Source of the DNA: a virus
Length of the DNA stretch: 37,575 nucleotides
IMG/VR virus record: IMGVR_UViG_3300050821_015129
Location: 1 to 37,575 of that record
Reading direction: 5' to 3' (one strand)
The position numbers and the translations under genes are program-made. Within the stretch, counting starts at the first letter, position 1; each line of letters begins with the position of its first letter. Positions 4,840 to 34,780 of this stretch are shown here, piece after piece. Below the pieces are notes generated by a model that was not told the DNA's origin, made no database searches, and worked only from the letters and a program-made list of their open reading frames with translations.

Positions 4840-5825
4840 CAGGGAACCTTCAGGACGGCGAAATTCGGGAACAGTTTGTAAGTGTCCGCGCCGATGGTGT
4901 ACTCGCTGGCGTTAGAGAAACCGTTTCCTACGCCGTTCGACGCGAAACACAACGGAAGACTTCCGAGCAGGGAGTACCCGGTCGAGCTCCCGTCGCGGTT
5001 CGCCCAGAGCAGCACGGGAAGCAAGTTTGCCCGGGCATCCTGCGCGCTCGTCTGCACGTTGATGAATTCCGACACCCCGGCGCTCTTTTGATAGGAAGGA
5101 AACGTGTTGCTGCCGGTTATGCCGACCGAGGTCGCGCCCAGTTTTCCCGTGTAGCCTTCGGCGCCGGTTGGTGGACCGCCGATGAAAATCCACGCCCCGG
5201 TGAACGAGTCCACATCCGCGCGCACGAACGCGGTCCCGAGACTGTAGCCGTCCGTTTCGGTCGGGCAGGTCGCCGTCGCGGTATATCCCGCGGCTCCGGC
5301 GATCGGACTCGTCAGCGTGCTGTTCCAGCCATTCGATGAGCCGAAGAAATACGGGCCCCCGGTGATGGTTCCCGCCTTATTGATCGACAGTCCCCATCCG
5401 AAAAACACAAAGCGTCCCGGAGTCACTTCCACGATCACGACCACGTTATCCACGGAGGAATCGGTCATGAAGTAGTAATTCGTGAAGGGACCCGCGGAGG
5501 TGTACGCGCTCGCGCCGACGGGATTCGATCCGCCGCTCGCGATCGGCGCGCCCCCTACCTGGCTGTTCCAGGCGCTTAAGGAAACGAAAGCCGTTCCGAG
5601 ATAGAGGTCGATGCCGAAGCTAGTGCCTCCGGCGTTGGCGAGAAAAGTGTGCTCCTGCTCGCGCGCGCGCAGGTGGACGTAGTTCCCGCTTTTGTGCAGA
5701 TGCGCCCGCCATCCGAGTCCTTCCACCGTGCTCATGTCTTGCGTCCAGCCATTCGCGACGAGGAACGTGACGAGCTGCTGGAGTAAATCGGTCGAGCCCG
5801 TCGCGCTGCCGTTTGAATACGCCAT
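4839..5825 (-). CDS. Virion structural protein, paralogue of 5836-7011
   Basis: A 328-residue, Gly/Ser/Thr-rich protein that looks beta-rich. It resembles its upstream neighbour at both ends. The N-terminus has GSATGSTDLLQQLVTFLVANG, against GSATDYADLLNQLDTFLTGTG in the neighbour. The C-terminus is a short gel-like block ending in hydrophobic strands (YKLFPNFAVLKV here). The pair therefore looks like an ancient tandem duplication. Position between tape measure and distal tail protein suggests a tail-tip or side-fibre part. A strong ribosome site (GAGGAG) precedes the ATG. No enzymatic motif is visible. Confidence 0.7.
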   Translation of the reverse strand: MAYSNGSATGSTDLLQQLVTFLVANGWTQDMSTVEGLGWRAHLHKSGNYVHLRAREQEHTFLANAGGTSFGIDLYLGTAFVSLSAWNSQVGGAPIASGGSNPVGASAYTSAGPFTNYYFMTDSSVDNVVVIVEVTPGRFVFFGWGLSINKAGTITGGPYFFGSSNGWNSTLTSPIAGAAGYTATATCPTETDGYSLGTAFVRADVDSFTGAWIFIGGPPTGAEGYTGKLGATSVGITGSNTFPSYQKSAGVSEFINVQTSAQDARANLLPVLLWANRDGSSTGYSLLGSLPLCFASNGVGNGFSNASEYTIGADTYKLFPNFAVLKVP

Positions 5826-28829: not shown

Positions 28830-29095
28830 GCCGGGACCTCGGCGTCCGTGTGAAAAGACCGCTTGCCGTTCCGGTGCTTCCTCGTTTCCCACTCGAGGAA
28901 CACGGCGATGGAGCGGAGGCAGTCCTCGTCGAAGATCGTCGAGTGCTCCGGAGAAAAAACGTATTTGCGCCATCGCGAATACCACTCCACCGTTCCGAGG
29001 TGGTTCGCTTTGTCGAGACTCCACACTTCCCACGTGTCGGTCTTGGCATTCAGCCGGCGGTCGTTCGGTTGAAAGCTGACGTGTGGGCCCTTCAC
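28826..29095 (-). CDS. Small phage protein with WYSRWRKYVF motif
   Basis: An 89-residue protein from GTG 29095, which overlaps the integrase A stop as GTGA. It contains LGTVEWYSRWRKYVFSPEHS and IFDEDCLRSIAVFLEWETRK. This pattern (aromatic WxxRWRxYxFxPE, then a helix) is known from small phage-encoded proteins of unknown role. It directly follows the integrase, so both are translated together. Confidence 0.62.
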   Translation of the reverse strand: MKGPHVSFQPNDRRLNAKTDTWEVWSLDKANHLGTVEWYSRWRKYVFSPEHSTIFDEDCLRSIAVFLEWETRKHRNGKRSFHTDAEVPA

Positions 29096-30150
29096 GCCGG
29101 GACCTCCTCGTTCATTTTTTCCACGGCCGACTGCCGATGGTCCTGCGCGAGGTGGGAATACTTCATCGTCTGGACGATGGACTTGTGGCCGAGCAGCTCC
29201 TGCACGGTTCGGATATCGACGCCGCGCATCACCAGGCGCGAGGCAAACGTGTGCCGGATGTCATGCCAGTGAAAATCGTCGATGCCCGCTTTTTCGAGCG
29301 CCTCCTCGAGCCATCGGCGCGAGTCGCGCTTCGCTTCATCCGTGGCGTCGGGTGAAACGTACTTCTCCTTGGCGCGACCGATGGCGAGGAAGCGCAGAGC
29401 GCTGAGAGCCGAACGATTCGCGACGATGTGCCGCTGCCCGGTTTTCCCGGTCACCTTCAGATTTCCGCGATTGAGATCGACGTTCTTCCATTCCAGGAAA
29501 AACTGCTCGCCGCGGCGCATGCCGGTGTGCAGCGCGAGATTGAACTCCTCGAGGTGCGCCATGCACTGCTCCTTCGTGACCTCCTGGTCGTCCGGATCCA
29601 GAATCGCCTCGCGGAGGGAAGCCTCTTCCTCGGGCTTCAGCCACCGCACGCGCGACGGGTTCTCTTTGAACCGCTCCGCCTTGGACAGCGGATTGAACGA
29701 CAGTTTTCCCGCGTCGACCGCGAACTTATAAATGCTGCTCATGAGCGCGTGGTAGCGATTCGCCGTCGATTTCGAGATGCCTCTTTCTCGGATGAGCGAG
29801 GCGAGAGTTTCCTCGGCGCGCGCCGGCGTGAGCTGGTCTGCAGGGACGTTGCCGATGAGCGGGAGAAGTTGATTCAGGCGGATCGTGTCGGTCTCGTAGG
29901 ACAGCGGAGCGAGCCTTAGTTTCTTCCGCGCCATCGCCGCCTGGGAGAGTTCGCGGAAGGTGAGACGCGCTCCTTTTTTCGGCGGAATGAACCGGCCGTT
30001 CTTGACCTCCATCCGGCGCCGCGCGAGCGAATCGAGCGCGGCCGAGCGCCGGCCGACTTTTTCCCTGTGACGGATGCCTTCGCTGTCACAGTAAGAAATC
30101 CACCAGGTGCGACTTCCCGGTGGACGTTCGAAGATGCCACGAATCGCCAT
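29092..30150 (-). CDS. Tyrosine recombinase A, in the lytic-side operon
   Basis: A 352-residue tyrosine recombinase. Start ATG 30150; an open frame further upstream shadows the neighbour. The N-terminus (about residues 5-60) is an arm-binding-type domain, RGIFERPPGSRTWWISYCDS. The core-binding domain covers about residues 62-160. The catalytic domain has R212 (HTGMRRGEQ), H296 and R299 (HWHDIRHTF), H322 (LLGHKS) and Y331 (MKYSHL), so all key residues are present. It is clearly related to recombinase B on the other strand. It lies downstream of the excisionase-like gene in the same transcription unit, so it would be made when the lytic side is active. Excision is the likely role, but integration cannot be ruled out. 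Confidence 0.92.
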   Translation of the reverse strand: MAIRGIFERPPGSRTWWISYCDSEGIRHREKVGRRSAALDSLARRRMEVKNGRFIPPKKGARLTFRELSQAAMARKKLRLAPLSYETDTIRLNQLLPLIGNVPADQLTPARAEETLASLIRERGISKSTANRYHALMSSIYKFAVDAGKLSFNPLSKAERFKENPSRVRWLKPEEEASLREAILDPDDQEVTKEQCMAHLEEFNLALHTGMRRGEQFFLEWKNVDLNRGNLKVTGKTGQRHIVANRSALSALRFLAIGRAKEKYVSPDATDEAKRDSRRWLEEALEKAGIDDFHWHDIRHTFASRLVMRGVDIRTVQELLGHKSIVQTMKYSHLAQDHRQSAVEKMNEEVPA

Positions 30151-30161
30151 ACGGGAAAGCC

Positions 30162-30911
30162 CTAGCTGATGACTGGAACCTTTCCGCCGATTTTCGTCGC
30201 GAGCCACTCCGCGATCGCCGCGATCGCCGAGAGATGCCAGCGACCGCCGTCGGCTTCGAACAGCGCGAGGTTCACGGAGTCGCCGCCGACCCGGGCCCGG
30301 AACACGAACTGCGAGAGCTGCTGGTCGATTTCGGCGAACGTGCGGTATGGAGCGAGGTTCACTCTGGGCTTCAGGTTCGTCTGCTCCTTCAGCACGACGC
30401 CGCGGCGAGCGGAAACCTTCTGCGAGATGCCGTCGTCCTCGGACACATCGATCGCCTCGGCTGTGATTGCCGACGCGATTTTGAGAACGTAATCGAGATC
30501 CAGGGCGAAGGTGCCGTCCTCGTTCTCGATTTTCACGCGCTGGAAACCCGCCTGGCACTGAATGACAAAACTCTCGGGATCCAGCCACGTACCGAACGGA
30601 AAGGGCCTGATGAGTTTCGGATATTCGGCCTGGACCCAGCATCGACGCCGGCCGTAATCGTCGGACACGCGGGAAATGATTTCGACGCGGGTCGAACTCG
30701 TGACGTGGAACAGCACGTCGCCTTCTTTCGCGACCTGGTCGAGTTCGGCTTTGAACAAGTCGACGAGGCCCTGCAGCGTCCCGACGCTGACGGCACCTGG
30801 CGCCGGAGGCTTGATCAGGTCCATGTTTTTGTCCACGTACGTGAGCTTGCCTTTCGTGATCTGGTTCGGAGTCGCGAGCCCGAGAATTTTCTGAATTGCT
30901 TCAGCGATCAT
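30162..30911 (-). CDS. Phage protein, possibly DUF2303-like
   Basis: A 249-residue protein. The N-terminus has ITKGKLTYVDKNMDLIKPPA then VGTLQGLVDLFKAELDQVAK, a mixed part that I recognise from phage proteins of unknown role in early regions. The C-terminus has LAPYRTFAEIDQQLSQFVFR and LFEADGGRWHLSAIAAIAEW, which is like DUF2303 (YfdQ) and related early-region proteins. It is not a membrane or secreted protein. It lies with the 112-residue gene upstream, a pair often seen together in phages. Ribosome site GAGGGA. Role unknown. Confidence 0.58.
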   Translation of the reverse strand: MIAEAIQKILGLATPNQITKGKLTYVDKNMDLIKPPAPGAVSVGTLQGLVDLFKAELDQVAKEGDVLFHVTSSTRVEIISRVSDDYGRRRCWVQAEYPKLIRPFPFGTWLDPESFVIQCQAGFQRVKIENEDGTFALDLDYVLKIASAITAEAIDVSEDDGISQKVSARRGVVLKEQTNLKPRVNLAPYRTFAEIDQQLSQFVFRARVGGDSVNLALFEADGGRWHLSAIAAIAEWLATKIGGKVPVIS

Positions 30912-31566: not shown

Positions 31567-31950
31567 CTAAGCGGTCGCCTCTTCCTCGTGCGGCGCCGCG
31601 GCTCGTTTCGGAGCGAGAGCGGACCGCCGCTCCCAGCACCCCTGGCAGACCGCGACGTTTTTGTAGAACCGCGCGGCCTGCATTTTTCTCCCGCTCCTCT
31701 TACAGTCGAAACAATCGCGGCCGGCGACGCTCGAACCACGCCATCCGCGAGCGCCGCCGGCCGGCCAGATGCGGGGATGGTCGGCCCGGGAAAACTTTTC
31801 GATCTCATGCCGCTCGAACATCACCCGCTTCCCGACGCGCCGCACGCGGAGCATCCCTCGAGCGACGGCCACGTCCAGCGTGGACACGGACAGTGACAGG
31901 ATTTCCGCCGCTTCGAGACGTGAAAATAGCAGCTTCTCCGAAGGCAACAT
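31567..31950 (-). CDS. Excisionase-like HTH with zinc ribbon
   Basis: A 127-residue protein. The N-terminal 60 residues are a MerR/excisionase-type HTH: LLFSRLEAAEILSLSVSTLD, then RGMLRVRRVGKRVMFERHEI, a DNA-binding wing. A second part (residues about 75-110) has DCFDCKRSGRKMQAARFYKN and CQGCWERR, a CxxC...CxxC zinc ribbon. Its C-terminus is Ala/Glu-rich. The HTH fits a recombination directionality factor. As a regulator it may also act on early promoters. GGGAGGG lies before the ATG. It is in the same operon as integrase A. Confidence 0.68.
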   Translation of the reverse strand: MLPSEKLLFSRLEAAEILSLSVSTLDVAVARGMLRVRRVGKRVMFERHEIEKFSRADHPRIWPAGGARGWRGSSVAGRDCFDCKRSGRKMQAARFYKNVAVCQGCWERRSALAPKRAAAPHEEEATA

Positions 31951-32813: not shown

Positions 32814-33949
32814 CCGAAAAGCAAAAAATGCGCGGGGTGTTCGAGCGACCGAGGGGATCCGGGATCTTCTGGATAAACTACTACGACAGCGAAGGGCGGC
32901 GCCACAGAGAAAAAATCGGAAGGGAATCGGTCGCGGTGGAAGCGTACCTGCAGCGCCGCATGGAACTGAAGGAAGGAAAATTCGTCGCGCCGCGCACGGG
33001 AGAGGGAATCACCTTCAAAGAGATCGCCGAGGAACGCACAGCACTCAAAACCGCGAACCTTTCCCTCCTGTCACTGCGCGCCGATAAGTATCGGCTGCGC
33101 GGCCTCGTGAAAATCCTGGGATCGTCTCCGGTGCGCTCGCTCACCGCGCAAAAAGTCGAGGACGCGCTGAATCAGATTGCGGCCGAGCGCGGGATCGCCG
33201 GCTCGACGCTGAACCGATATCGCACGCTCGCCTCCAGCATCTTCACCGTGGCTGTCCGGAACAAGCACATTCCCTCGAACCCGGTCGCCGGCGTGACGGT
33301 GCGCCCCGAGCCTTCCGGCCGCGTGCGGTTTCTGACCGACCAGGAAGAAAAGAAACTCCGCCGCGCCATCCGCGCGGATTTTCCAGAGCGCGTCGCCGAG
33401 TTCGACCTGGCGCTCTCGACCGGCATGCGTCGCGCCGAGGAGTTTAACTTGACGTGGTCAGGCGTGGACCTCGAGCGGAAAAACCTACTGGTGATGGGGA
33501 AGGGAAGCCGCGGCCGCGGACCGAAGCGCAGGTTCGTTCCGATTAATGAACTAGCCGGAAAATCCCTGCGCGCGCTGTACAAAATCTCGAACGGCTCGCC
33601 GTACGTTTGCCCGCGCAAAAAGCGCGAAGGACAGCGAGACTTTTCCAAGTGGTTCGAGGAAACGGTGAAGCGCGCCGGGATCCCGGACCTGCACTGGCAC
33701 GATCTCCGTCACACCTTTGCATCGCGGCTCGTCATGGGCGGCGTGGACATCCGCACCGTGGGAGAACTGCTCGGCCACGCCTCGATTCAGACCACCATGC
33801 GCTACGCCCACTTGAGCCAAGAACACCGGCACGCGGCCGTCGGAACGCTCGATCGCTGGCACCAGGATGGCACCAAGCGGAAACGAGCTCCTCGAAAAGT
33901 GATACAAGTCCAGCATAATCAACGGCGGCGCGGTACCCAAGAGGCCTAA
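32810..33949 (+). CDS. Tyrosine recombinase B, in the lysogenic-side operon
   Basis: A 379-residue tyrosine recombinase. The N-terminus (GVFERPRGSGIFWINYYDSE) matches that of recombinase A. Catalytic residues are R207 (STGMRRAEE), H297 and R300 (HWHDLRHTF), H323 (LLGHAS) and Y332 (MRYAHL). A basic C-terminal extension of about 30 residues (WHQDGTKRKRAPRK...) is absent in A; its codons include two TGGCACCA repeats 11 bp apart (33857-33875). The gene is in the same operon as the RHH regulator and beside the repeat-rich gap. Integration is the likely role. Start ATG overlaps the coiled-coil stop. Confidence 0.92.
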   Translation: MTEKQKMRGVFERPRGSGIFWINYYDSEGRRHREKIGRESVAVEAYLQRRMELKEGKFVAPRTGEGITFKEIAEERTALKTANLSLLSLRADKYRLRGLVKILGSSPVRSLTAQKVEDALNQIAAERGIAGSTLNRYRTLASSIFTVAVRNKHIPSNPVAGVTVRPEPSGRVRFLTDQEEKKLRRAIRADFPERVAEFDLALSTGMRRAEEFNLTWSGVDLERKNLLVMGKGSRGRGPKRRFVPINELAGKSLRALYKISNGSPYVCPRKKREGQRDFSKWFEETVKRAGIPDLHWHDLRHTFASRLVMGGVDIRTVGELLGHASIQTTMRYAHLSQEHRHAAVGTLDRWHQDGTKRKRAPRKVIQVQHNQRRRGTQEA

Positions 33950-34135
33950 GGGAGAGGTCTGCAAAGCCTTTTCTGGTGGGTTGCGGCATCATGCGGCACA
34001 GCGTAACATGCCTGTTTTCAGTGAAACTGCCTTGCGGCATGCTGCGGCAGAACGCTATCTGCTGGCACCAGAACGGCACCAGATGGCACCGGGCGAAAGT
34101 CAACGATTCGTTGACAACTGTAAAGTTTTCTTTGC
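33950..34135. repeat. Repeat-rich gap beside integrase B: candidate attP
   Basis: No gene is seen. TGCGGCA occurs four times, at 33982-33988, 33992-33998, 34033-34039 and 34043-34049, in two pairs with 10-bp spacing. TGGCACCA (34063-34070), CGGCACCA (34074-34081) and TGGCACC (34084-34090) follow at 10-11 bp spacing. A perfect palindrome GTCAACGA-T-TCGTTGAC lies at 34099-34115, then an A/T-rich tract. Such arrays next to an integrase gene are the usual form of attP arm sites. Core and crossover site cannot be located from this window alone. Confidence 0.55.
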
Positions 34136-34780
34136 TTATTTGCAGTGCCCGGAGCCGCACACCGCGACCGCCCCGACGCCGATTCCAATCACCAGCCACT
34201 TCGCCGAGCGCTTTACTCGCGACCAGAACCCGCCGCCCTTCGCCGCGTCCTTCCAGGTATCCCGCTCCTTGGTCATGGCCGAGAGTTTTTCGCCGGCGTC
34301 GACCAGTCTCGCATCGCGCGAGGATAGGTCGCTTTGCGCCGTGGCGAGCCGTACGCCGCACACCTGGCACTGGGAGACCTCATCCCGCAAGGCGGGAAGA
34401 TCCGCCTGCGGAATCGACGCTACGGCGTTTGGCACGGGGATTGCGGCGGTCGGCGCCGGAATCGTGAACGTGATCGGCTGCGGAGTGGAAAGCTGCTTCG
34501 GAAGCCACGCGGCGATCTCCGCCGGCGTCGTTTGACGAGCTGCAGCCGCCTGCAGCGCCGCGACGTTCGCCGCGGTCGCTTTATCGCGTTCCGTCTCGGC
34601 CGCGACCAGGTCCTTGTCCCGTTTTTCCGCCGTGGCGATCACTTGGTTCTGCGCGTCGACGGTCGCCTTCGCGCGGATTGCTTCCTCGCGCGCACCGAGC
34701 CACGCTCCTCCGAGAACCGCGCACGCCGCGAGAGCGAGGACTGCTCCCGCGATTTCCAGCTTATGCCTGGTGGTCAGCAT
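34136..34780 (-). CDS. Coiled-coil membrane protein, spanin-like
   Basis: A 214-residue protein. An N-terminal membrane helix (KLEIAGAVLALAACAVLGGA) is followed by a long Ala/Glu/Lys-rich coiled coil (about 30-75), a Pro-rich middle, a second coiled coil with CQVC (about 135-175), and a C-terminal hydrophobic segment (WLVIGIGVGAVAVCG). The first part is like an inner-membrane spanin. The C-terminal hydrophobic segment is unusual for that. It is the last gene of the lysis cluster. GGAG precedes ATG 34780, which overlaps the previous gene by about 20 bases. Confidence 0.55.
   Translation of the reverse strand: MLTTRHKLEIAGAVLALAACAVLGGAWLGAREEAIRAKATVDAQNQVIATAEKRDKDLVAAETERDKATAANVAALQAAAARQTTPAEIAAWLPKQLSTPQPITFTIPAPTAAIPVPNAVASIPQADLPALRDEVSQCQVCGVRLATAQSDLSSRDARLVDAGEKLSAMTKERDTWKDAAKGGGFWSRVKRSAKWLVIGIGVGAVAVCGSGHCK

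Follow-up and report, generated by a model that had tools for sequence, protein, structure and literature searches.

We report a phage attachment site that lies beside, and partly within, the 3' end of a tyrosine integrase gene, and we hold with high confidence that the segment 33850-34090 is the attP of this integrase, integrase B (IntB). The window, by which we mean the whole stretch of 37,575 nucleotides that was analysed (IMG/VR record IMGVR_UViG_3300050821_015129, positions 1-37,575), belongs to a phage whose contig carries terminase, major head protein, endolysin and tail genes. Identity of the core, layout of the site, its conservation across a family and the integration products in relatives all emerge from sequence comparison; we infer that IntB binds the outer GGCACC sites and that the exact cut falls in the anticodon loop at 33959-33965. 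A pattern noticed by eye has in this way become a complete and testable attachment site, whose target gene and crossover point can be predicted, in uncultured soil phages for which few integration sites have been mapped.

The initial annotation had described four TGCGGCA copies in two pairs of 10-bp spacing, three YGGCACC copies spaced by 10-11 bp and a perfect 17-bp palindrome, all assigned to the non-coding stretch next to integrase B. Each of these elements was found where it had been placed (Table 1), and the claimed repeats do lie in the 186-bp gap delimited by the intB stop (33949) and the convergent Rz-like gene, which ends at 34136. About half of the site had been seen; the tRNA-derived segment 33927-33974 and two further TGGCACC copies, 11 bp apart and inside the coding part of intB, had been missed. 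The phasing of the repeats is far from chance: we count nine pairs of six-mers spaced by 10 or 11 bp in 33982-34115, where 2000 dinucleotide shuffles average 0.08 pairs and reach 4 at the most, and no other segment of the window attains this number. The left outer pair matches its right-side copy at 19 of 24 positions (shuffles at most 17), and a 34-nt stretch at 33855-33888 is repeated with 76% identity at 34061-34094. The palindrome is real, yet unexceptional, being one among ten perfect palindromes of at least 16 bp in the window, and no perfect palindrome is evident at the equivalent position in relatives. It is possibly a weak terminator of the lysis genes; a terminator scan did not call it, and an Rfam scan of the region returned a single chance hairpin and nothing more.

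Table 1. Elements of the putative attachment site and neighbouring genes in the window (distances counted from the anticodon centre)
Feature	Position	Strand	Basis or remark
intA, paralogous tyrosine integrase inside operon	29095..30144	-	PF00589 5.8e-27; 46% identity to IntB
Excisionase-like HTH_17 protein, candidate recombination directionality factor	31567..31950	-	divergent, upstream of intB
intB, tyrosine integrase, 379 aa	32810..33949	+	PF00589 1.2e-32; phrog_1 integrase 3e-67; last ~30 codons overlap attP
Outer (arm-type) site L1, TGGCACC	33857..33863	+	-105; inside intB coding 3' end
Outer (arm-type) site L2, TGGCACC	33868..33874	+	-94; inside intB coding 3' end
attP core, tRNA-Cys(GCA) 5' part, nt 1 to ~45	33927..33974	+	nhmmer, blastn, pairwise alignment
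Anticodon loop CTGCAAA, predicted strand-exchange (overlap) region	33959..33965	+	inferred from prophages G112, G125
Inner pair 1, TGCGGCA x2, 10 bp apart	33982..33998 (starts 33982, 33992)	+	+20/+30
Inner pair 2, TGCGGCA x2, 10 bp apart	34033..34049 (starts 34033, 34043)	+	+71/+81; 51 bp from pair 1
Outer (arm-type) sites R1-R3, TGGCACC, CGGCACC, TGGCACC	34063..34090 (starts 34063, 34074, 34084)	+	+101/+112/+122; spacing 11, 10
Perfect 17-bp palindrome GTCAACGATTCGTTGAC	34099..34115	.	beyond right arm
Rz-like gene, converges with intB, bounds attP on right	34136..34780	-	position and look of the sequence

The core of the site is identified, through sequence similarity, as the 5' part of a tRNA-Cys gene, and the host tRNA-Cys gene would be expected to match GGCGCGGTACCCAAGAGGCCTAAGGGAGAGGTCTGCAAAGCC. 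A scan of IMG/VR with the anticodon-arm pattern of the window returned 67 other contigs, in all of which (67/67) ARAGORN placed a tRNA-Cys at the match, and the 36 distinct tRNA-Cys among these contigs were built into a model. In nhmmer this model matched the window at 33928-33974 (model positions 2-45 of 74, E 3.2e-9), a result which is partly circular because the collecting pattern was derived from the window itself. Two observations stand outside this pattern: the 15 bases GGCGCGGTACCCAAG of the window match the tRNA-Cys of contig L160 exactly, and the nearest IntB relative, L018, which the collecting pattern does not match, carries a tRNA-Cys 5' part at the same place (model positions 1-46, E 4.1e-12). 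With blastn against all collected tRNAs the best match of the window was tRNA-Cys nt 1-43, at 91%. The similarity may extend to about 33982; the intB stop codon falls in the D-loop part of the core, and the anticodon centre, 33962, serves as the origin for site distances. The window contains no complete tRNA gene, the IMG/VR pattern scan returned neither an exact tRNA-Cys host gene nor a lysogen of the window phage, and no host tRNA-Cys with the window core was present in 101 + 299 genomes of two phyla, which may not include that of the host.

Relatives of IntB, a modest set picked from IMG/VR by similarity to it, make the geometry of the site visible. In several of them tRNA genes or tRNA 5' halves follow straight after the integrase gene, and a tRNA 5' part is carried by the window, L018, L019, L029 and L031, the pieces in the last three coming from tRNA-Leu; the core of L037 resembles, by eye only, a tRNA-Gln(CTG) 5' half. 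Arm-type repeats flank the core left and right in the window, L018, L019, L031, L037 and G125. With motifs chosen by eye, phage by phage, the outer sites stand at -106/-95 and +111/+122 in L019, at -104/-93 and +122/+133 in L031, at -107/-95 and +122/+134 in L037 and at -107/-96 and +101/+112 in G125, and a distance of 51 bp separates the inner clusters of the window, L018, L019 and G125. The repeat sequences differ from phage to phage and the two sides agree within each phage: across the core the outer repeats match at 19-21 of 24 positions in the window, L018, L019, L031 and L037, against at most 17-18 in shuffles, while the outer match of L029 lies within the shuffle range and L024 has no left arm match. 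The earlier proposal that spacing near one helical turn sets the sites on one face of DNA gains its support at the level of the family, where the sites of relatives shift by ~10 or 21 bp and the inner clusters keep ~51 bp. The left outer sites lie inside the integrase frame in the window, L018, L029 and L041 and outside it in L019 and L031, and it is therefore the DNA site, not the peptide, that has been kept.

Two relatives were caught in the integrated state, and both point to a crossover within the anticodon loop or directly beside it. The prophage G125 (IMGVR_UViG_3300014501_000028) is bounded by a perfect 42-bp direct repeat, equal to nt 1-42 of tRNA-Met(CAT) and ending at the anticodon loop; rejoining its flanks gives an intact tRNA in ARAGORN and the displaced junction gives none. 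Its arm sequence GGGCACCTACATGGCACCAG, or a near copy, occurs at both prophage ends, in one case within the integrase 3' end and in the other past the displaced tRNA 5' half. In G112 (IMGVR_UViG_3300050821_005250) a tRNA-Leu(TAG) is split and the rejoined flanks give the complete gene; here the prophage ends share only AGCCTTAGGA, about 10 bp at the anticodon loop, and a complete tRNA-Leu(TAG) of the phage's own sits between the integrase gene and the junction (L024 4045-4131 and 4219-4270; L163 reverse complement 59-98). Directly beside this tRNA 5' half, at the left end of G125, lies the 3' end of a further integrase gene with arm-like repeats of its own (L162, reverse complement, 133-450), which may be a remnant or a tandem element at the same tRNA.

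The catalytic set of the integrase itself is complete, R207, K231, H297, R300, H323 and Y332 being invariant in an alignment of 20 relatives. An AF2 model (mean pLDDT 81, pTM 0.55) places at the N-terminus, ahead of the core-binding and catalytic domains, a three-stranded sheet (strands 10-12, 20-25 and 31-37) with a helix at 39-54, and Foldseek against the PDB gave full-length lambda Int (1z1b, 351 columns) as the best match; a lambda-Int-like arm-binding domain is predicted on this basis. The tail 353-379, where the gene overlaps attP, is disordered in the model. In the genome collection the IntB relatives reached identities of 22-24% only. The Rz-like gene on the other side of the site has no family match, and L014 shows the same context.

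It would be logical to suggest the following course of integration. At the end of intB the phage brings a tRNA-Cys 5' part of ~45 nt. Cutting and strand exchange by IntB would take place in the anticodon loops of the phage core and of the host tRNA-Cys; the phage 5' half would be joined to the host 3' half, so that an intact tRNA follows directly after intB, and the original tRNA-Cys 5' half of the host would be displaced to the other prophage end. The outer GGCACC sites (~-100 and +100 to +122) would be held by the IntB N-terminal domain as arm sites, and their near-one-turn phasing, which puts each set of sites on one DNA face, may let the DNA loop back to the core. The inner TGCGGCA pairs would be taken by the divergent excisionase-like protein, which may steer excision; the two repeat families probably serve different proteins. 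The phage map closes into a circle, which is what an unintegrated attP should show: a second contig, IMGVR_UViG_3300021170_000088, which is 100% identical to the window in the overlap, leads from the window's right end across ~2 kb absent from the window into its left end, and a circle of about 39.6 kb with an unintegrated site follows. Window ends 1 and 37575 are artificial, and the phage is circular or circularly permuted.

The inner pairs most likely belong to the excisionase-like protein, an assignment that draws on the spacing of the repeats together with the co-occurrence of the gene. The protein of the window stays under the cut-offs of PF12728 (2.4e-5, 24.9 bits, cut-off 27) and TIGR01764 excise (6.8e-5, 23.2 bits, cut-off 28.8), matches the phrog_66 excisionase at 7e-4, and has eight homologues in B-type relatives that do reach the PF12728 cut-off. 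When related phages are counted as if independent, an HTH_17 excisionase-like gene is present in 10 of 12 B-type genomes, always on the opposite strand and no more than about 2 kb from intB; of the 11 genomes without a B-type integrase none has it, or one if a partial 15.7-bit match is counted. No HTH_17 gene was recognised in the B-type genomes L029 and L031; the L031 contig begins 590 bp upstream of the integrase gene and has strong inner repeats, and it neither supports nor refutes the pairing of excisionase and inner repeats. For winged-helix proteins such as BldC, by description, and RdfS, an excisionase that is modelled as a filament, each protomer takes up about one turn of DNA (PMC11963761). 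The 10-bp spacing of the inner repeats in the window and its divergent excisionase-like gene agree with binding of this kind, which is predicted here; RdfS has no clear consensus motif (PMC11963761), whereas the window repeats are exact.

A different recombinase could be considered as the user of the site, namely integrase A, alone or jointly with B, for instance with A on the inner repeats. A and B are indeed paralogs, found together on at least six contigs (the window, G107, G110, G111, G112 and G113). In a tree of 43 relatives, B-type and A-type sequences fall into distinct groups (support 93/96 and 88/74). The distribution of the attachment site speaks for B: a tRNA piece is found within 430 bp downstream of 8 of 12 B-type versus 0 of 17 A-type genes (Fisher p = 0.0001, related phages being treated as independent), intA of the window and 16 other A-type integrases making up the latter. 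The initial annotation had named a core located elsewhere, for example near integrase A, as an observation that would contradict it; the core adjoins the array on the intB side, and together with the matched outer repeats it favours the arm-site interpretation which the annotation had offered. The five near-complete A-only records G104, G105, G108, G119 and G122 gave no tRNA piece in the sequence searched. Furthermore, the close relatives L013 and L014, in which about 0.8-1.1 kb of different sequence takes the place of the window's 31.57-34.13 kb, have IntA and lack IntB, a recognised excisionase-like gene, the array and the attP region entirely, and in G115 (L029) the sole integrase of the 36-kb record is B-type and still has its tRNA core. 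We consider use by integrase A very unlikely.

Phages with two integrases keep the B-type beside attP and the A-type in an operon, and the A-type is also kept without B. The 516-aa frame of IntA (29095-30642, minus strand) overstates the length of the gene: homology to integrases begins near 30144, and a different conserved frame (30162-30911) overlaps its first ~160 codons. G119 and G122 have phased arrays without a tRNA, and the A-only phage L033 has phased TGGATGGCAC and TTGTTGACGTGGTTG repeats, with no tRNA piece, in an intergenic gap (5631-5698).

Arrays of this kind might also be operators, in which case the inner TGCGGCA copies, or all repeats, would bind a repressor or activator of phage genes and form no recombination site. 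Multimeric regulators do use sites one turn apart, and phased arrays exist elsewhere in relatives, for example the L033 array and the TGCGGCA arrays near HTH-like sequence in L010 and L011. The region of the window, however, lies between converging genes, hence no gene starts there, and distances from the tRNA core are fixed in phages with unrelated repeat sequences; an operator function is highly improbable here, and elsewhere the excisionase-like protein may have a dual role. Hardly credible is the suggestion that the downstream repeats are a decayed copy of a duplicated intB 3' end, in which TGGCACC..GGCACC encodes WHxxGT: the 34-nt repeat with its 76% identity and the reading WHQNGTRWH in one frame of the downstream copy would fit it, but other phages carry unrelated repeats of their own at these two distances, in L019 and L031 the left copy falls outside the integrase frame, and the encoded tail is predicted to be disordered. 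The chance that we deal with an iteron-type replication origin or a partition site is close to negligible, since the 10-bp TGCGGCA tandem arrays of other contigs (about 11 copies in L009) are set against the int-adjacent position, the tRNA core, matched arms on both sides and no adjacent replication gene.

Returning to the attP of integrase B, its least ordinary part is the constant geometry despite turnover of the site sequences. One may go further and imagine an attP geometry fixed in helical turns (outer sites at ~-105/-94 and +101 to +134, inner clusters at 51 bp), with both site sequences turning over together in each lineage, integrase-arm and excisionase specificities co-evolving, and the conserved IntA sharing the site or serving a second step of recombination; taken as a whole, this picture is rather unlikely.

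Attachment sites in tRNA genes are common, and the window attP is of this ordinary kind in an uncommon, 5'-restoring form. It would work in the manner of lambda attP and Int, with which it shares a core between arm sites about a turn apart and, by prediction for IntB, an N-terminal arm-binding domain; it differs in the tRNA anticodon core, in the left arm sites placed in the coding end of intB and in the second family of repeat pairs on the right side only, and no IHF site was identified in the window attP. In the Islander collection 159 of 3919 islands have a 5' tDNA fragment and 2083 sites are anticodon-centred (PMC4383910). The anticodon-centred islands resemble our family in crossing over at the anticodon loop and in restoring the gene with an element-borne 5' half (PMC4383910); a 5' part is carried by the window, and the displaced 5' 42 nt are seen in G125. 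What is a minority configuration there is here the trait of one phage integrase clade with fixed arm geometry. Integrase genes of the Mx8 phage and the SSV virus run across attP (PMC4383910), and the overlap of the integrase reading frame with att DNA is common to all three, whereas in the window the coding sequence takes in the left arms and no more than the first ~23 nt of the tRNA piece, with the anticodon and right arm downstream of it. The layout of tRNA-dependent lysogeny is known in actinobacteriophages and mycobacteriophages (PMC10865867). G112 is alike, splitting a host tRNA-Leu(TAG) at a ~10-bp core and carrying a whole tRNA-Leu(TAG), and it alone shows the short core, the lack of a rebuilt tRNA and the complete phage tRNA of the same isotype which define that layout; the window has no complete tRNA gene, and its tRNA 5' part of ~45 nt should rebuild the gene, leaving a spare tRNA unneeded.

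We see the family as a panel of integrases, each paired with its arm sites and its tRNA target (Cys, Leu, Met-CAT and probably Gln), useful for reading the evolution of arm specificity and for choosing integrases. The uncommon restoration of a 5' half becomes the habit of one integrase clade, and it leaves a phage integrase gene standing upstream of a host tRNA.

Searched through IMG/VR, the TGCGGCA array pattern matched only a sister contig, L009 and the pair L010/L011. The arrays of the pair (L010 8121-8177, L011 5551-5607), with 10-bp TGCGGCA spacing, lie ~460 bp upstream of a distant integrase and near HTH-like sequence, in a layout unlike that of the window. In L009, a 4.9-kb contig without a related integrase, about 11 copies of TGCGGCATYW stand in tandem at 10-bp intervals (2153-2229).
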